NCBI RefSeq assembly: GCF_900156675.1
Contig: NZ_FTOH01000007.1
Location: forward strand, 186,001-250,000
Direction: 5' to 3'
Length of the DNA: 64,000 bases
Source: Thalassolituus maritimus
GTDB taxonomy: Bacteria; Pseudomonadota; Gammaproteobacteria; Pseudomonadales; Oceanobacteraceae
The notes below the pieces were generated by a model, which was given only the letters and a program-made list of their open reading frames with translations, was not told the DNA's origin and ran no database searches. The position numbers were made by a program, and so were the translations under genes. This document shows positions 8,139 through 15,678 of this stretch, one piece after another (within the stretch, counting starts at the first letter, position 1; each line of letters starts with the position of its first letter).

Positions 8139-9506
8139 TCAGCTACGGTTGTTATTGCCGTTGCGACGACGACGCGGGCGACGGCGGCGTTGCCCATCAT
8201 TGCGCTCGCCTGCACCATCGTTGCGTCTGTCGTGTGAACGACTCGCGGCTGGTGGATGGTCTTTCTGGATTTCGGTCCAGAAATCACACAGCTCTTGCAG
8301 GTCTTCGCCGGACTGCTGACGTAGCAACAGGAAGTCGTAAGCGGCACGGAAGCGTGGATGCTGAGTCAGCTCGGCAGCTTTGCGGCTGCGTGTTTTCGGC
8401 AGGCGTAGCTGCATTTCCCAGATTTCACGCATCGGAATCGAGAAGCGTTTTGGAATCGCGGTCGCTTTCACCTGTTCCTGAAGCACCTTGTCGGCGGCTT
8501 TCTGTTGGGCAGGGTGGGGCGCCATGCCATCGTCTTCGTACTTCTGACGCACTTTATTCAGCTGCGGCCAGAGCAGTGCAGCCAGGAAGAAATACGGTGT
8601 TACCGACTTACCCGACTGAATACGGGCATCGGTGTTACGCATGGTGTTCTCGATCAAAGACACGGCGTAATCGTCTTCCTGCATGCGTTGTTCCGCAGAC
8701 GGGAACAGAGGTTCGAACAGGTGATAGTCACGAAGCATGCGCACAGTCTCCAGTGCGTTGCCTGCCAGAATAAGTTTCAGAGACTCTTCGAACAGACGCG
8801 CTGCAGGGATCTGAGTCATCAGTGGTGCCATGTCGCGAATCGGCGCGGCCGTTTTCGCTTCGATGTCGAAGCCAAGTTTTACCGCAAAGCGGATGGCACG
8901 GAGCATGCGCACCGGGTCTTCCCGATAACGTGTTGCCGGATCACCGATGAGGCGGATCTGCTTGGCTTTCAGGTCTTCCCAGCCGCCAGCGTAAGAGTGC
9001 ACACTGAAGTCATCGATGTTGTAGTAAAGGGCATTGATAGTGAAGTCGCGACGCATCGCATCTTCGTCTTTGTTACCGTAGACATTATCGCGCAGGATCA
9101 TACCCTGATCGCCCTGGCGGGATACTTTGTCCGAATGTTCGTCAGAGGGCGGGGCGCGGAATGTCGCGACTTCAATGACCTCGCGGCCAAATACCACATG
9201 AACCAACTTAAACCGACGACCAATCAGGCGTGAGTTGCGGAACAGAGCATTAACCTGCTCTGGCGTCGCATCCGTCGACACATCGAAATCTTTAGGTGAC
9301 AAACCCAGAAGGTTATCGCGGACACCTCCACCCACCAGATAGGCACCATAGCCAGCTTTACGCAGTCGATAGAGCACCTTAAGCGCAGGCTCACTGATGT
9401 TTGTGCGGGAGATAGAATGCTCGTCGCGCGGAATCACACGCAGCTGTACATCGTCAGCATCGGCTTTCTGGCTGAACAGTTTTTTGACTCGGTTGATCAG
9501 GGTCAC
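8139..9506 (-). CDS. pcnB: Poly(A) polymerase I
   Basis: A 455-residue class II nucleotidyltransferase. The active-site region is LVGGGVRDNLLGL followed by the catalytic DFDVST, and the CCA-adding-enzyme-like RNA-binding block INALYYNID and GDPATRYREDPVRMLRAIRF follows. The C-terminus is strongly basic (QRRRRPRRRRNGNN), as in other PcnB proteins. It adds poly(A) tails that promote RNA decay. The start used is GTG at 9506, whose ribosome-binding site is weak. Upstream lies the small-RNA array, the same cbrB-crcZ-pcnB order seen in Pseudomonas. Confidence 0.93.
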   Translation of the reverse strand: MTLINRVKKLFSQKADADDVQLRVIPRDEHSISRTNISEPALKVLYRLRKAGYGAYLVGGGVRDNLLGLSPKDFDVSTDATPEQVNALFRNSRLIGRRFKLVHVVFGREVIEVATFRAPPSDEHSDKVSRQGDQGMILRDNVYGNKDEDAMRRDFTINALYYNIDDFSVHSYAGGWEDLKAKQIRLIGDPATRYREDPVRMLRAIRFAVKLGFDIEAKTAAPIRDMAPLMTQIPAARLFEESLKLILAGNALETVRMLRDYHLFEPLFPSAEQRMQEDDYAVSLIENTMRNTDARIQSGKSVTPYFFLAALLWPQLNKVRQKYEDDGMAPHPAQQKAADKVLQEQVKATAIPKRFSIPMREIWEMQLRLPKTRSRKAAELTQHPRFRAAYDFLLLRQQSGEDLQELCDFWTEIQKDHPPAASRSHDRRNDGAGERNDGQRRRRPRRRRNGNNNRS

Positions 9507-9610
9507 GATAGAAGTGGTTCTCTGGTTAATCTGCGAGCGAGTTTACAGCTAAGCCGGAGCGGACACAAAGTAAACAGTTGAGGCTGGCCCGGAGGGGAGG
9601 TAGCAGACAA

Positions 9611-9646
9611 AGAAAAAGCCGCACTGATTGGGGCCAGTGCGGCTTT
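9611..9646 (-). terminator. Intrinsic terminator of CrcZ-like RNA copy 1
   Basis: On the minus strand a 12-bp stem AAAGCCGCACTG/CAGTGCGGCTTT with an 8-base loop runs into CTTTTTCTTTG. It ends the copy nearest pcnB and should stop read-through into pcnB. Confidence 0.88.
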
Positions 9647-9925
9647 CTGAGTCGGGTTGTGCCGGATGTTGTTATTGTTATGCCCGACTACCATGTCGAC
9701 AGATGTTTTGAATGGGCATCCCCTGCCTCATTTTTTATTGTTGTTGTCGGCGCTCAATGCGCATTCAAAACATTTGTCACCCAGGCCTTTGTTATTTTTA
9801 TTGTTGGCCCTTCTTCTCTACCCGATCCCTTCGGAAGCACTTTGTTATTTTTATTGGTGCGCTTCGTTTTGAGATCTTGTTGAGGCGTCGCATTTGTTAT
9901 TTTTATAGTTTGCGTTGCTCTCTGA
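9611..9925 (-). ncRNA. CrcZ-like Hfq/Crc-titrating small RNA, copy 1 (nearest pcnB)
   Basis: A predicted RNA of about 315 nt on the minus strand, between the sigma-54 promoter at 9935-9951 and the terminator at 9611-9646. It carries at least five A-rich ARN-type motifs, seen on the plus strand as TTGTTATTTTTATTG-like blocks near 9670, 9731, 9788, 9841 and 9893. The one at 9788-9805 reads on the RNA as AAC-AAT-AAA-AAT-AAC-AAA, exactly six ARN triplets, the length that fills the distal face of an Hfq hexamer. CrcZ in Pseudomonas lies at this locus, is driven by CbrB and sigma-54, and titrates Hfq/Crc to relieve catabolite repression. Function here is inferred; the 5' end is estimated. Confidence 0.85.
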
Positions 9926-9934
9926 TGAATATAA

Positions 9935-9951
9935 AGCGAATGGTGTGCCAA
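9935..9951 (-). promoter_or_regulatory. Sigma-54 promoter of small RNA copy 1
   Basis: On the minus strand TTGGCACACCATTCGCT has the invariant GG (9949-9948) and GC (9937-9936) separated by 10 bases, with TGGCAC matching the -24 box. An IHF-like site TATCAATGACTTA (9970-9982) lies 21 bp upstream of the GG. Confidence 0.85.
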
Positions 9952-10023
9952 CTTTTAAAAATCTATATTTATCAATGACTTACGTTTCATTGTCCCGGTT
10001 TTTGAGTTGTGCTGTGGCCCGAA

Positions 10024-10084
10024 GTGTTACGAAAGATTACGAATTGTGTAACCCACAGGTAACAAACTTCAGGAAACGTAACAC
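10024..10084 (-). promoter_or_regulatory. CbrB-type enhancer cluster for copy 1
   Basis: Five GTTAC/GTAAC-type half-sites occur within 61 bp (GTGTTAC, GATTAC, TGTAAC, GGTAACA, CGTAACAC), 75-135 bp upstream of the -24 box. Spaced, inverted GTTAC/GTAAC elements are what I recall for CbrB targets; the position suits a sigma-54 enhancer. Confidence 0.65.
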
Positions 10085-10182
10085 TGAGTAAATGTTCAAT
10101 CAGCCTTACGCCGGATGCCACTGAAGAGTAAACCGTCGAGAGGGTATGAAGAGGTCGGATCGGGTAGGGCGAATTTCAGGCA

Positions 10183-10208
10183 ATAAAAAAGCCGCAGGTG
10201 CGGCTTCT
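10183..10208 (-). terminator. Intrinsic terminator of CrcZ-like RNA copy 2
   Basis: On the minus strand a GCCGC/GCGGC stem extended by A-T pairs is followed by TTTTTTATTG, ending the middle RNA gene. Confidence 0.85.
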
Positions 10209-10416
10209 TGGATTCTTTCTGCAGTCTTTGTTTGGACGCCTCTGTTATTTTTATTGTTAGCGGCCCAACTGTCTTATTTTTCTCTGATCTTCCGTACTTC
10301 TTATTGTTTGTGAAGGGGTCCTTCACTGGGCTTGCTGATTATTTTTATTGTTTGCGTTTCAGCGGCAAGCCCGGCAGTCCGACTTTGTTATTTTTATTTG
10401 TGTCGTCCTGCTGTAC
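10183..10416 (-). ncRNA. CrcZ-like Hfq/Crc-titrating small RNA, copy 2 (middle)
   Basis: A predicted RNA of about 235 nt between the sigma-54 promoter at 10426-10442 and its terminator. The A-rich motif at 10241-10258 reads on the RNA as AAC-AAT-AAA-AAT-AAC-AGA, again six ARN triplets. Further blocks lie near 10271, 10301, 10337 (five triplets) and 10385. It is the shortest of the three copies. Outside the motifs the transcribed sequence has diverged from copies 1 and 3, while the promoter module and terminator are conserved, which suggests old duplications kept for their decoy motifs. No open frame with a start and ribosome-binding site is present. Confidence 0.83.
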
Positions 10417-10425
10417 GTAAATTAA

Positions 10426-10442
10426 TGCCAAGACCGTGCCAG
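10426..10442 (-). promoter_or_regulatory. Sigma-54 promoter of small RNA copy 2
   Basis: On the minus strand CTGGCACGGTCTTGGCA has GG (10440-10439) and GC (10428-10427) with the required 10-base spacing. An IHF-like TTTCAATGGGTTA (10461-10473) begins 21 bp upstream of the GG, the same offset as in copies 1 and 3. Confidence 0.87.
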
Positions 10443-10514
10443 TTTTTAAAAGTCTTTATTTTTCAATGGGTTATGGTTTTTCAATGGCGGGCGTCAGGCG
10501 CATTTTTACAGAAA

Positions 10515-10617
10515 GTGTTACGTAACATTACGCTGACATATGTCTATTGGTAACAGTTGGGCGAGTGGGGTAACACTTTAGTCGAAGTGTTCTGCCTGGG
10601 GTAACAAAGTCGTTACC
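10515..10617 (-). promoter_or_regulatory. CbrB-type enhancer cluster for copy 2
   Basis: Six or more GTTAC/GTAAC half-sites occur: GTGTTACGTAACA is a head-to-head pair at 10515-10527, followed by GGTAACA near 10549, 10569 and 10600 and GTTACC at 10612. They lie 75-180 bp upstream of the -24 box. Confidence 0.62.
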
Positions 10618-10663
10618 GATCGGGAATGATTGCTGAGTCGGGTGCTGATGCCTGACGGACAGG

Positions 10664-10690
10664 CAATAAAAAAGCCGCTCAGGCGGCTCT
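10664..10690 (-). terminator. Intrinsic terminator of CrcZ-like RNA copy 3
   Basis: On the minus strand an AGCCGC/GCGGCT stem with a four-base loop is followed by TTTTTTATTG. It is nearly the same sequence as the copy 2 terminator. Confidence 0.86.
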
Positions 10691-10928
10691 TCAGGGGCGT
10701 TATTCTTATTATTCTGTGCTGCCACAGGTGTCATCGTCGTTTTGAATAGGCAGAGCTTCTGTTTTTATTCTTGTTTTGTCTCTGCTCATTCGAAACTAAC
10801 AATGGTGGCCATTGTCATTTTTGTTATGAGGTTGGGAATTACCGGCGCTTTGTTATTTTTATTAGTGCGCCTCCCGCTTACCGGCAGTGTCTCTTTGTTA
10901 TTTGTATTGATGGACACCAGCTCAGTAC
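10664..10928 (-). ncRNA. crcZ: CrcZ-like Hfq/Crc-titrating small RNA, copy 3 (nearest cbrB)
   Basis: A predicted RNA of about 265 nt directly downstream of cbrB, between the sigma-54 promoter at 10938-10954 and its terminator. A-rich blocks lie near 10698, 10760, 10813, 10850 (five ARN triplets, AAT-AAA-AAT-AAC-AAA) and 10893. Being next to cbrB, it occupies the position of crcZ in Pseudomonas; calling this copy, rather than copies 1 or 2, the crcZ orthologue is arbitrary. The expected role is to bind Hfq (with Crc) when CbrAB senses poor carbon supply, freeing repressed catabolic mRNAs. Confidence 0.83.
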
Positions 10929-10937
10929 TGTCTATAA

Positions 10938-10954
10938 AGCTAAACTCGTGCCAG
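10938..10954 (-). promoter_or_regulatory. Sigma-54 promoter of small RNA copy 3
   Basis: On the minus strand CTGGCACGAGTTTAGCT has GG (10952-10951) and GC (10940-10939) 10 bases apart. An IHF-like AAACAATGAGTTA (10973-10985) begins 21 bp upstream of the GG. Confidence 0.87.
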
Positions 10955-10997
10955 TTATTAAAAATACAATAAAAACAATGAGTTACGAAATTACACT

Positions 10998-11015
10998 TGT
11001 CTATAATTATAGACA
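10998..11015. repeat. 18-bp perfect palindrome in the copy 3 control region
   Basis: TGTCTATAATTATAGACA is a perfect palindrome between the IHF-like site and the enhancer cluster of copy 3. Copies 1 and 2 lack it. It may be an extra operator or a cruciform-prone spacer. Confidence 0.6.
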
Positions 11016-11026
11016 GTTAGACTAAA

Positions 11027-11157
11027 GTGTTACGAACTGTGAGCCATTAGGTAACAGTTTTGATACCTGAGTAACACTCTGTAACTGGATTTGATACATA
11101 CGTAACAGAAAAGACGAAAGGCTGTCCCGAAAAGAGTATGTACGAGCAGGGGTAACA
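11027..11157 (-). promoter_or_regulatory. CbrB-type enhancer cluster for copy 3
   Basis: GTGTTAC at 11027 and GTAAC-type sites near 11050, 11071, 11081, 11101 and 11150 form a cluster 75-205 bp upstream of the -24 box, immediately past the cbrB terminator. Confidence 0.62.
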
Positions 11158-11159
11158 AA

Positions 11160-11194
11160 AAGAGTGGCCGAGCTGGAATCAGCGGCCACCTTTT
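11160..11194 (-). terminator. Intrinsic terminator overlapping the cbrB stop codon
   Basis: On the minus strand a GGTGGCCG/CGGCCACT stem with a 12-base loop is followed by CTTTTTG. It begins inside the last cbrB codons and should separate cbrB mRNA from the small-RNA genes. Confidence 0.75.
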
Positions 11195-12582
11195 TTGCGT
11201 GGAATGCCAAGGCGCTGGCGACGTTCCCACAGCGATTTACGTGAGATTCCCAGCTTTTTCGCCAGTTCGGTCTCGGTCATGGACGCTTCGTTCTCGAGTA
11301 CGAAGTGCACAAAGTAATCGTCCAGTGACAGATCACCCTGCTGCTCGTCGTTCTGGTCCGTAGGCTGGTATGGGTTGTCTTCGACCAGGCTGTTACGCAT
11401 GGAGTCACTTATGTAACGATCAGGGCTGACTTCGATGCCCAGCAGGTCAGGTTCAACCTCATCAGACTCAGCGAGGATGACAGAGCGCTCAACAGCATTC
11501 TCCAGCTCGCGCACATTGCCGGGCCAGTGGTAATCACGAATCGCTTTCAACGAGGCATCGTTAAAGCGCATCGGCGCCTGAGCCATTTTCTCACAGGCGC
11601 GTGCCAACATAGCGGTGGCAATTTCAATGACATCTTCACCGCGGTCACGCAGAGGCGGCAGGTGCAGTTCCATTACGTTGAGGCGATAATACAGATCTTC
11701 CCGGAATTCGCCTTGTGAGGAGAGTTCTTTCAGATTGCGGTGCGTGGCAGCGACGAGGCGTACATTTACCTTCTGGCTTTGCACTGAACCGACACGGCGA
11801 ATTTCGCCTTCCTGCAGAACGCGTAGCAGCCGCGCCTGAGCTTCAAGGGGAAGCTCGCCGATTTCATCCAGAAAAAGGGTGCCGCCATCCGCGGCTTCAA
11901 CCAACCCCTGGCGCTGAGCGGTCGCACCGGTAAATGCGCCTTTCTCATGGCCGAACAGTTCGGACTCAATCAGGGTTTCAGGGATTGCCGCGCAGTTTAC
12001 GGAGATCAACGGCTTGTCAGCGCGCCGACTCTGATTATGAATTGCTTTGGCCACCAGTTCTTTACCGGTGCCGGATTCGCCTTGAATCAGCACAGTGGCG
12101 TCTGTTGGAGCAACCTTGGCGATCTTTCGGAACAACAGCTGCATTGGCTCGCAGCTGCCGATAATCCCGGTTTTAGAGGATGGCACTGGCTCTGGCAGGT
12201 CATCCAGCGTGTCTGTCACTGCATCGGCAGTTTCTGTGCGCATTGCCAGGATACGCTCGACCGCCTGAATCATTTCGTCGTGATCAAAGGGTTTGGCAAT
12301 GTAATCAACCGCGCCGAGCTTCATGGCATCGACGGCAGAACGCAGACTGGCGTAGCTGGTCATGATCAGAACCGGCACTTTTCCTGCGAGCTCAATAAGG
12401 TCAGTGCCATGGCCACCAGGCAGTCTCAGATCGCTGATGATCATGTCATAGCTGGTCAGGTCGAGCGCTTTGGCGGCATCGACAGAGTCTGCTTCAGTCA
12501 CTTCATGATTATGGCGAGTTAACAGGCGACGCACCGCGTTGCGGATAATAGCTTCGTCTTCTACGACCAGAATATGACTCAT
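11179..12582 (-). CDS. cbrB: CbrB, sigma-54-dependent response regulator
   Basis: A 467-residue NtrC-family activator. The receiver domain covers about residues 1-120, with a phosphoacceptor Asp in [13 protein letters not shown]. The AAA+ domain has Walker A GESGTGKE, the sigma-54 contact loop GAFTGA in [12 protein letters not shown] and Walker [13 protein letters not shown] Fis-type helix-turn-helix ends the protein ([20 protein letters not shown]). It is named from synteny: it is cotranscribed with the CbrA-type kinase (4-bp overlap) and is followed by the CrcZ-like array and pcnB. It should activate the three sigma-54 small-RNA promoters. Confidence 0.93.
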
Positions 12583-15509
12583 GAATGGTGATCCGTTAAC
12601 TCAGGTTGTTCACAACGTGGAAGACTGACTGTAACACAGGTTCCGCGTCCGCTGGCCAATGGGCTGTCGATTGCGATGTGACCGTAGTGCTCTTCAATGA
12701 TGCTGTAGACTAGTGATAGTCCCAGTCCTGTCCCTTTACCCACGTCTTTGGTGGTAAAAAATGGCTCAAATATATGATCGAGCGTTTCCGCCGGAATGCC
12801 GTGTCCGTCATCGATCACGCGGATTCTGACCTGCTGTTCATCCATATCGCCCTGAACCCAGATGGTGCCGCCGGCTTCGGAGGCATCGCGCGCGTTACCC
12901 AGCAGGTTTACAAACACCTGCACCAGACGCTGAGCATCTCCCATAGTCATCAGTTCGGGCGGGCAGTCGTTAATAAAATTGATGTCCTGACTGCGCTTAC
13001 TCAGCTTAAGAAGCTGGATGGCTTCGTTGATACAGTAGGTGGCGTCGACCGGCTCGTGTTCTGTGCTGTGATGTCCGGCGTGAGAGAAGTTCATTAGCGA
13101 TTGCACGATTCGGGTAACACGCTTGGTCTGTTCCTGAATCTGGTCGGCCATTTCCAGTAATTCCGGGTTGTCGGTCTCGTAACGCATGCTTTGCGCCAGA
13201 CAGTCGATCCCCGTGATTGGGTTGCCAATTTCGTGGGCGACGCCGGCAGCAAGACGACCGATCGACGCAAGGCGCTCACTGTGCATCAGCTCTTCTTCAA
13301 GGAGCTGAGTCTCAGTCTGGTCCTCAAGCAGAATAACGGTACCGCCGGGCTGGCTGCCGCTGGGTTGCAGAACGGCTTTGTGCATACCAAACCAGCGTGG
13401 ACGACCGGCACTGTCGACCCGGTGCTTGTGTTTGTGCATGGCGTGGCTGGTCAGGAAGTCGGTCAGCATCGGACCCCATGGAGAAGGCAGACGACTGACG
13501 TGCGAGCCCGTCACTTCACGGGACTCGGTACCCGTCAGTTGCGACATGACCTGATTCCACATCAATACTTCGCCATCCGGAGCGAGTGAGCATACCCCCA
13601 TAGGAAGGCGCTCAAGTGTCTGGCGGTGATAACGGCGCAGGTTATCGAGTTCGCTGGCAAGACCGCCCAAGCGGCTGTGGAAACCTTCAAGGCGCTGTTC
13701 CAGCTGGAAGATGTCTTCGGTCAGCTCAACGTCTTTCTGGAAGGGCAGATAGCGGTTCACCAGATCGTGAGCAACCGTTGGGCCCATCAGACCTGAGAGG
13801 TTGGCCTCCAGTCGGGCACGCAGGCGGCGCAGAGCGTACGGTCTGTCTTCGTAGGACGGAAGCTCAAGATCATCTAACGCCTGATAGACTTCGCGTTCTG
13901 CGACGTAGCGTCCCAATGACGGTGTTAACGCATTGATGACTTCATTGGTGTTTACCGCTTGCAGAGGCAGACGCGATGGGCGTGACACGTTATCAATTGA
14001 GCAGGCATCCGCGGCAGACTGCTCTTCGGCGCTGCGTTTGGTGCTCAGGCTGATAATGACAAACAACAGGAAATTGATACCAATCGCAGTGATGGCTGAT
14101 AAGTGCCAGTTGCCTTCATCGGTGGGCGGTAAGAAGAACGGGATTTCCCAGCCCAATGCCAGCTCACAGAACGGCAGTAACAGACCATAGATCCAGGTGA
14201 CGGTGCCGACGACCAGACCGACGATAAAGCCTTTACGGTTGGACTGAGGCCAGTAGAGCAAGCCGAGAATACCGGGCAGGAATTGCGAGCAAGCAACGAA
14301 CCCGAGAATGCCCAGCTGGCTTAGATCCAGATCAGAGCCGACGATGCGGTAGAAGCCATACGCCAGTAACAGGATTACCCCAATCAGTGAGCGGCGCATC
14401 CACAGCAACCAACGATAGAAATCGTAGCGTGGTGCAGGCTTATAAACCGGGAGCACCAGATGGTTGAGGAACATGGCCGCGGTCGACAGGGTGGTAACAA
14501 TGATGATGCCGGACGCAGCCGCCAGGCCGCCGACGAAAATCATTACGGTCAGAAATTCAGATTCCAGCGCCAGGCCAATGCCCAGTGCGAAGTAGGAAGG
14601 GTCACTGTCGACGTTCAGATAGTAGCCAGCCCACAGAATAGGTGGCACCGACAGGCTCATGATCAGTAGAAAAAGTGGAAAGCCCCAGCTCGCATGCTTG
14701 AGTGCCCCAGGGTTGGTATTCTCGGTGAAGGCCATATGGAACATGTGAGGCATCGCCACCGCAGCCGCAAAGAACATCAGCAGCAGGGTTCGCCATGGGC
14801 CATCCTGAAGTCTTACCTGTTCGCGTGCGAGCTGGGCCTGATTGTCTGATAACCACTGTTCCAGGCCGCCGACTTCAGGGAATACGCCAAACAGAACCAC
14901 GCCGCCCAGCACAAGAATGGCGACCAGCTTCAGAACGGATTCAAAGGCAATGGCGAACACCAGCCCTTCGTGTTTCTCACGTGGAGACACATGGCGCGCA
15001 CCAAACAGAATGGCGAACAGGATCATGATCAGACAGTAGGCCAGTGCCAGATTCTCAACCGGCCATTCGCGGTTCAGCAGATAAAGCGTATCGCCGATGG
15101 CTGTGATCTGCAGCGTCAGCATCGGGATCACAACCGCCAGCATGATCAGGGAGACGGTGATCCCTGCCCACCGCGACCTGTAACGGAAGGCAAGTAAGTC
15201 AGCCAGAGAGCTTAGCTGGTAGGTCCGGGTGATCTGCAGAATCGGCTTAAGCAGAATCGGGGACATGACAAAGGCCCCGGAAATACCCATGTAGTAGGCG
15301 AGGAAGCCATAACCGTATTGGTTAGCCAGACCGACAGAGCCGTAAAACGCCCAGGCGCTGGCATAGACACCCAAAGACAGCACATACACCAGAGGGTGGC
15401 GTACCCAGGCGCGGGGTAGCCAGTTGCGCTCGACGGCATAGGCCGCGAGAAAGAGAGAAAACAGATAGCCAACGCCGAGGAGCGCCAGCTGACCAAGGCT
15501 AAACGTCAT
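12579..15509 (-). CDS. cbrA: CbrA, transporter-fused sensor histidine kinase
   Basis: A 976-residue protein. The N-terminal half is a sodium/solute-symporter-like membrane domain with about 13 membrane segments. It is followed by a PAS region ([20 protein letters not shown]), the H-box [16 protein letters not shown] and the ATPase motifs DGHGIPAE and [14 protein letters not shown]. The family couples histidine or nutrient sensing to phosphorylation of CbrB. I chose the ATG at 15509, preceded by GAAGGACAACG, over an upstream GTG/TTG-type start, because it matches CbrA length (about 980) and overlaps the small upstream gene by 11 bp. Confidence 0.93.
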
Positions 15510-15678
15510 CGTTGTCCTTCTGCTTGCTGTTAAACCAGATGTAGAGAGCAATCAGAAGCGCCCAGATACCGAATGGACGATACCAGGCGGCACGGTCGTC
15601 GAGCCACCAGTCCATCATGACTGGAGAAATAAGATAGATGCCAACCAGCATCAGCAGACTGAGGCGATAATCGTACAT
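15499..15678 (-). CDS. cbrX: Small membrane protein, cbrX-like
   Basis: A 59-codon frame from ATG at 15678 to TAG at 15499-15501. It begins MYDYRLSLLMLVGIYLISP and has two predicted membrane segments (about residues 6-20 and 33-49) and a charged tail SKQKDNDDV. It overlaps the cbrA start by 11 bp, so translation of the two is probably coupled. A small gene in this position, cbrX, is known upstream of cbrA in Pseudomonas; the name rests on position and character, not on an alignment. Function is unknown. Confidence 0.75.
   Translation of the reverse strand: MYDYRLSLLMLVGIYLISPVMMDWWLDDRAAWYRPFGIWALLIALYIWFNSKQKDNDDV

Follow-up and report, generated by a model that had tools for sequence, protein, structure and literature searches.

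A tandem array of three CrcZ-like RNA genes, putative Hfq/Crc decoys, between cbrB and pcnB in Thalassolituus maritimus

Introduction

Pseudomonas CrcZ (Rfam RF01675) is a single RNA of 407 nt whose gene has cbrB upstream and pcnB downstream, and which combines CbrB subsites, IHF, a sigma-54 promoter, A-rich motifs and a terminator. Additional CbrB-controlled CrcZ paralogues, CrcY in P. putida and Azotobacter and CrcX in P. syringae, lie at other loci. The RsmX/Y/Z decoys of CsrA/RsmA are likewise a multi-copy set of protein-titrating sRNAs with binding motifs in hairpin loops, but they differ in protein, motif and regulator and offer a functional analogy only.

P. aeruginosa CrcZ contains six A-rich stretches (PMC4063720). 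In P. putida, the CbrB subsites TGTTAC/GTAACA have been mutated and footprinted, and IHF is also required (PMC6296734). The CbrAB-crcZ system has been called unique to Pseudomonas and Azotobacter (PMC8871633, PMC6296734), and a 2022 review describes cbrB-crcZ synteny as unique to Pseudomonadaceae; we found no report of tandem CrcZ arrays, or of CbrAB outside Pseudomonadaceae, in the open-access literature. Here we describe a locus in Thalassolituus maritimus, analyzed within a 64,000-nucleotide stretch of DNA (the window), that shares the gene neighbors and component parts of Pseudomonas crcZ but would encode three tandem RNAs of ~235-315 nt. Whereas CrcY and CrcX are dispersed, the window copies lie head to tail in one intergenic region, each with predicted CbrB control.

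Three complete modules fill the cbrB-pcnB interval

The 1.67-kb interval between the end of cbrB (11179) and the start of pcnB (9506) on the minus strand consists of three successive complete modules (Table 1). Read 5' to 3' on the minus strand, each has CbrB subsites (TGTTAC/GTAACA) and then an IHF-like site ahead of a sigma-54 promoter of the form TGGCAC-N7-GC; A-rich Hfq motifs follow, and a terminator-like hairpin with a T run closes the module. The A-rich blocks of the array together form a 10-copy repeat family. A first-pass annotation of this DNA had proposed three units, each with its own sigma-54 promoter, A-rich blocks and terminator, in the slot that crcZ occupies in Pseudomonas. 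We find all of these parts in all three modules, the starts it predicted (9925, 10416 and 10928) fall within a few bases of the promoter positions, and both profile searches and gene order in relatives place cbrB on one side of the array and pcnB on the other. At the level of sequence, the three-module layout is confirmed. In both RNA 1 (~10730-10800) and RNA 3 (9698-9778), a long stem of strongly conserved sequence, UUUYGAAUG.../...AUUCAAAAC, encloses an A-rich loop.

Our preferred reading, to which we assign a probability of roughly 0.86, is that the locus holds three CrcZ-like decoy sRNA genes in tandem, whose products would titrate Hfq/Crc upon induction by CbrB, with the size of the array setting the decoy capacity.

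Table 1. Features of the cbrA-pcnB region, in window coordinates and in minus-strand order
Feature	Coordinates	Strand	Basis
cbrA: SLC5-type transporter domain fused to sensor histidine kinase	12579..15551	-	histidine-kinase profiles over C-terminal part; homologues adjoin cbrB in relatives
cbrB: NtrC-type sigma-54 activator, presumed array activator	11179..12582	-	NtrC-family profiles; cbrA-cbrB-array-pcnB order conserved
CbrB subsites, module 1: TGTTAC 11157, 11107, 11076, 11056; GTAACA 11033	11028..11157	-	PMC6296734 consensus
IHF-like site, module 1: TAACTCATTGTTT, two mismatches to YAANNNNTTGATW	10973..10985	-	
Sigma-54 promoter 1: TGGCACGAGTTTAGCT	10938..10953	-	pattern match
CrcZ-like RNA 1: ~260 nt, 5' end inferred; 4-5 A-rich motifs; GCCGC...GCGGC-T6 terminator	10664..10925	-	sequence; consensus fold, six sequences
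Hairpin 1a: GUGUCC/GAGACAC	10887..10918	-	R1 model E=0.013; consensus fold
Hairpin 1b: GGCGC-(18 nt)-GCGCC	10842..10873	-	R1 model E=2e-7; MFE; consensus fold
CbrB subsites, module 2: TGTTAC 10606, 10575, 10555, 10527; GTAACA 10521	10516..10606	-	
IHF-like site, module 2: TAACCCATTGAAA, mismatched to consensus, same offset	10461..10473	-	
Sigma-54 promoter 2: TGGCACGGTCTTGGCA	10426..10441	-	pattern match
CrcZ-like RNA 2: ~235 nt; 3' end GCCGCACCTGCGGC-T6	10180..10413	-	sequence
Hairpin 2a: CGAC-(18 nt)-GUCG	10377..10408	-	R1 model E=1.5e-6; MFE
Hairpin 2b: weak; within a longer hairpin in MFE	10326..10359	-	R1 model E=0.17
Hairpin 2c: GCC/GGC flanks; absent from MFE	10234..10265	-	R1 model E=3.3e-6
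CbrB subsites, module 3: TGTTAC 10083, 10064; GTAACA 10030	10025..10083	-	
IHF-like site, module 3: TAAGTCATTGATA, perfect match, the only one in the window modules	9970..9982	-	
Sigma-54 promoter 3: TGGCACACCATTCGCT	9935..9950	-	pattern match
CrcZ-like RNA 3: ~315 nt; 4-5 A-rich motifs; 15-bp terminator stem 9648-9613	9608..9922	-	sequence
Hairpin 3a: CGCA-(18 nt)-UGCG; compensatory A-U to U-A in two relatives	9886..9917	-	R1 model E=6e-4; MFE
Hairpin 3b: GAAGCGC-(18 nt)-GUGCUUC	9834..9865	-	R1 model E=1.9e-7; MFE; relatives' fold
Hairpin 3c: GGGCC-(18 nt)-GGCCU	9781..9812	-	R1 model E=3.3e-7; MFE; relatives' fold
Long conserved hairpin: stem GUUUUGAAUG.../...CAUUCAAAAC, A-rich apical loop	9698..9778	-	inverted repeat I1; kept in relatives
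pcnB: polynucleotide adenylyltransferase, downstream border of array	8139..9506	-	TIGR01942, 520 bits

Each module carries a CrcZ-type promoter

Within the 64-kb window, TGGCAY-N7-GC-W has no minus-strand matches other than the three promoters; three unrelated matches lie elsewhere on the plus strand. Their -12 elements differ by copy (TAGC, TGGC and TCGC). In the ~230 bp upstream of promoters 1, 2 and 3 there are five, five and three perfect TGTTAC/GTAACA hexamers, together 13 of the 47 in the window. Across the modules of the window's family, CbrB subsites cluster 70-140 bp upstream.

The IHF-like sites in the window match the reverse complement of the consensus and share one offset from the promoter. 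This fixed distance had been noted in the first-pass annotation, and it extends to the family: among the family sites with up to two mismatches, 73 stand exactly at -32 from the promoter T. Within one mismatch, YAANNNNTTGATW or its reverse complement occurs no more than 60 bp upstream of the promoter in 92 of the 98 family modules, compared to ~17 expected from shuffles. By sequence and family conservation, the array therefore has the upstream architecture of CrcZ, CrcY and CrcX sRNAs: CbrB subsites, an IHF-like site and a GG-N10-GC sigma-54 promoter, arranged as published for crcZ/crcY.

These promoters bear on a very different account of the locus, in which read-through from cbrB yields a single long transcript, the chief role of the repeated stem-loops is to protect or process that transcript, and the internal promoters have little activity or are vestigial. 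Consecutive structured units could indeed stabilize a long RNA, and read-through from PcbrB adds to CrcZ levels in P. putida (PMC8871633). If read-through sufficed, however, promoter loss would be expected, whereas complete CbrB, IHF-like and sigma-54 sites precede each unit family-wide, and each unit has its own terminator. We regard this account as highly unlikely.

The RNAs are CrcZ-like but fall below the Rfam threshold

A covariance-model search with CrcZ had been put forward as a check on the decoy proposal. No match in the window region reaches the gathering score of RF01675 (15.7 and 11.7 bits versus 95). The synteny, promoter and motifs are of CrcZ type. In the survey of the order described below, the three Pseudomonas loci have RF01675 CrcZ in this slot (family f21; 307-320 bits), and family f2 also reaches the threshold (101-103 bits). 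Since the window RNAs score far below gathering, we call them CrcZ-like rather than members of RF01675, and their homology to CrcZ rests on synteny, promoter and motifs. They have every crcZ-type feature that we tested at the sequence level: a gene adjoining cbrB, several A-R-N motifs, an intrinsic terminator and the promoter set. Other Rfam matches in the region, including MIR169, narK, rsmX, isrK and asX2, are weak, and we judged them to be chance. The core motif also differs, being AAUAAAAAUAACAAA in the window family and mostly AACAANAACAA in the copies of Pseudomonas CrcZ. Scans of the window genome with the hairpin model described below, and with a strict pattern of two motifs, revealed no additional crcY-like locus, although a diverged copy could escape both.

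Most strict-core A-motifs lie in hairpin loops with covarying stems

The core of the A-motif, NNN-AAUAAAAAUAACAAA, spans 18 nt or six triplets, and is located in hairpin loops of 17-18 nt whose stems covary. In its strict form, the core AAYAARAAYAAYARA plus the three preceding bases again gives 18 nt, which in most copies reads as six A-N-N triplets, most often five A-R-N and one A-N-N. We spotted this register by eye in the window and then tested it on the family, using every occurrence of the strict core regardless of its flanks. The mean stem directly outside the 18 nt is 3.58, compared to 1.13±0.13 when right flanks are swapped among motifs, with related genomes counted separately. When near-duplicates are thinned to leave 36 sequences, a fairer set that includes the window's own motifs, standard pairs make up 64.7% of the cells across seven pairs, versus 39.8±2.7 in shuffled sequences. 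The covariation score in this set is 0.568, versus 0.198±0.030 when shuffled, and sliding the register by 1-3 bases lowers it to 0.11-0.24. These covariation tests concern strict-core motifs; many other A-motifs have no hairpin.

With a looser motif, and again counting related genomes separately, 202 of 334 motifs in the family lie in a hairpin, compared to 49.8±6.4 expected by exchange, with a loop-length peak at 17-18 nt; in other families the corresponding values are 68 of 256 and 19.9±3.9, with a broader peak. While most strict-core motifs of the window family lie in such covarying loops, we saw no clear signal at the three Pseudomonas loci (3 of 14 motifs in a hairpin; null 1.8±1.1). The arrangement is not wholly new, as the Rfam CrcZ consensus already draws two A-motifs in comparable hairpin loops of 22 and 18 nt.

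Individual folds agree with the family pattern. A covariance model of the hairpin, itself built from such sites, has five matches at E<1e-3 when run over the full 3.86-Mb genome, and every one falls in the array. Within the window array the model places seven motif hairpins at E<0.02, with further A-motifs besides, against the six A-rich stretches of P. aeruginosa CrcZ. Minimum free energy (MFE) folds put most window core motifs in these loops, hairpin 2c being an exception, and consensus folds of orthologous modules retain several motif hairpins with compensatory changes. In the family, the only matches of the model that we could not place at the arrays are lone A-motif hairpins at L214 ~1605-1640 (G016:C1:2843107-2843138) and at G015:C23:10035-10066, which have an 18-nt loop on a long stem (GCTGCAC...GTGCAGC) and sit just past the stop codon of an apparent membrane-protein gene.

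The distal face of Hfq accommodates 18 nt as six triplets (PMC6422490), so that one 18-nt loop equals one distal-face footprint of the hexamer in size. This correspondence raises the possibility that the decoys are evolvable counters of Hfq hexamers: an 18-nt loop would pre-shape the A-N-N crown, one hairpin would capture one hexamer, and module gain or loss would tune capacity between species. We offer this idea tentatively, and rate it at somewhat below even odds. The covarying loop defines a minimal RNA for structural work on Hfq capture and can serve as a model in searches for further sites of this kind.

Hfq and Crc are encoded in the genome

The genome of the window encodes both proteins that the array is proposed to titrate. 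Hfq scores 102 bits, above the cut-off. Crc lies in the order pyrE-crc-rph and has as its best PDB match 4jg3, P. aeruginosa Crc; it is 39% identical to a P. aeruginosa Crc sequence that served as a probe only, and the PDB search is independent of this probe. Among 44 family genomes, 42 have Crc. In Thalassolituus marinus, crc is in two overlapping pieces (G039:C17:48343-49115) and appears broken, by a frameshift or a sequencing error.

At the position of the distal-face tyrosine Y25 of E. coli and Pseudomonas Hfq, the Hfq of this genome (L213, G000:C11:162045) has a phenylalanine. This substitution could indicate that some factor different from Hfq/Crc recognizes the A-rich hairpins, or that the hairpins are DNA or RNA elements unrelated to catabolite repression. 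Against this stand the make-up of the motif, mostly five A-R-N and one A-N-N, the match between loop size and Hfq footprint, the location of the array in the crcZ slot, and the presence of both crc and hfq. We consider this the least probable of the alternatives discussed here.

The decoy reading, which the first-pass annotation had also favored, thus draws on the crcZ position, the CbrB/IHF/sigma-54 sites of each module and the presence of Crc and Hfq. In this model, carbon limitation would activate CbrA/CbrB, and CbrB, assisted by IHF, would switch on the three sigma-54 promoters separately. By analogy with Pseudomonas, the A-motifs of the RNAs would then take up Hfq, with Crc, on its distal face (PMC4063720, PMC6422490). 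Jointly, the RNAs would draw Hfq/Crc away from catabolic mRNAs and relieve carbon catabolite repression, and the size of the array would set the decoy capacity; a larger number of modules may mean a greater supply of decoy, or a response that is graded. Gene order, promoter architecture, motifs, terminators, covarying stems, conservation and a recent duplication (see below) are read directly from the DNA, and we infer from them transcription, CbrB dependence, Hfq/Crc binding and a dosage effect.

Arrays of two to four modules are the rule in the family

We extracted cbrB-pcnB intervals from two sets of genomes, those of the window's family and 80 others from the order. As a module we counted a promoter with at least one GTTAC/GTAAC in the 220 bp upstream and at least two A-motifs in the 350 bp downstream, a rule that we fixed after seeing the first scans. 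The 41 family genomes, several of which are metagenome-assembled genomes (MAGs), hold 98 modules in which promoter, upstream subsites and downstream A-motifs are kept: one module in 1 genome, two in 25, three in 13 and four in 2. Oceanobacter kriegii DSM 6294 has three modules, Parathalassolituus penaei four, Thalassolituus marinus and T. alkanivorans two each, and an uncultured Thalassolituus MAG four; an Oleibacter marinus MAG is among the records nearest to the window (PcnB 99% identity). The comparison across Thalassolituus and Oceanobacter relatives that had been suggested therefore finds promoter-RNA modules recurring at this locus. It does not support the first-pass claim that this particular genome triplicated the decoy, as near relatives hold the same triplet in positional orthology and 40 of the 41 family genomes have two to four modules.

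Beyond the family, 71 genomes from 37 other families, Pseudomonas included, have a cbrB match; these were sampled from the order and are not independent lineages, and several of the matches are distant (42-56% identity) and possibly not true CbrB. A module is present in 59 of them, usually as one copy (50 genomes) and in scattered smaller arrays of two (8) or three (1; G099, family f14), with none in the remaining 12. The choice of rule affects some counts: in both L048 and L070, a third promoter fails it. Five loci (L082 and L084 in f27; L093, L129 and L133 in f44) combine a distant cbrB match with A-motifs upstream of pcnB and no module passing the rule; the two f27 loci have TGGCAC-N7-GCC promoter-like sites.

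Relatives have two to four modules, so the regulatory part that Pseudomonas is known to carry once at this position is an expandable array elsewhere. Given that 59 of 71 cbrB-bearing genomes of other families have a module, and that the Thalassolituus/Oceanobacter family has arrays of two to four, variation in copy number at a single locus forms a natural dosage series for asking how much decoy relieves Hfq/Crc repression. Neither this order-wide distribution nor the covarying 18-nt loops figured in the first-pass annotation.

Array history and divergence of the modules

In a CbrB tree, the family forms one supported group (SH-aLRT 99), and its first split separates lineages that mostly have two or more modules; in the families nearest to it, a single module or none is present. 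We therefore infer that the family ancestor had at least two modules. The arrays in f14, f31, f12, f30, f39 and f6 suggest separate origins, with gene conversion or loss as alternatives.

Among the near relatives, modules keep their positional identity. In L034-L036, the counterpart of window module 1 is the first module and that of window module 3 is the last. Across these relatives, copies of module 1 resemble one another, and copies of module 3 likewise, much more closely than modules 1 and 3 resemble each other. Module 2 is weakly conserved, and the three modules therefore need not be equally functional. These patterns invite the view that the RNAs have diverged, such that one is the main Hfq/Crc decoy and the others are specialized, either in induction threshold or as base-pairing RNAs that use Hfq, and that the array is not simply extra dose. 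The copy-specific -12 elements and subsite numbers fit this view, as do long invariant stretches in module 1 beyond its A-motifs. However, all three modules retain A-motifs, motif hairpins and the promoter architecture, and one relative has recently duplicated a whole module almost unchanged, which suggests that copies are interchangeable at least at first. Overall, we find such specialization rather unlikely, and favor an array of three decoys.

The duplication in question is in L036 (G035, a MAG), whose last two modules form a 537-bp tandem duplicate identical at 534 of 537 bases (99.4%). Arrays thus appear to be still growing. The L036 duplicate could reflect either a copy gained very recently or an artifact of assembly. 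One further relative has a split array (L215; G037:C1:386000-400500), with one module by pcnB and the other ~11.7 kb away, in the opposite orientation and just after cbrB, as if a cbrAB-bearing segment had been inverted or moved.
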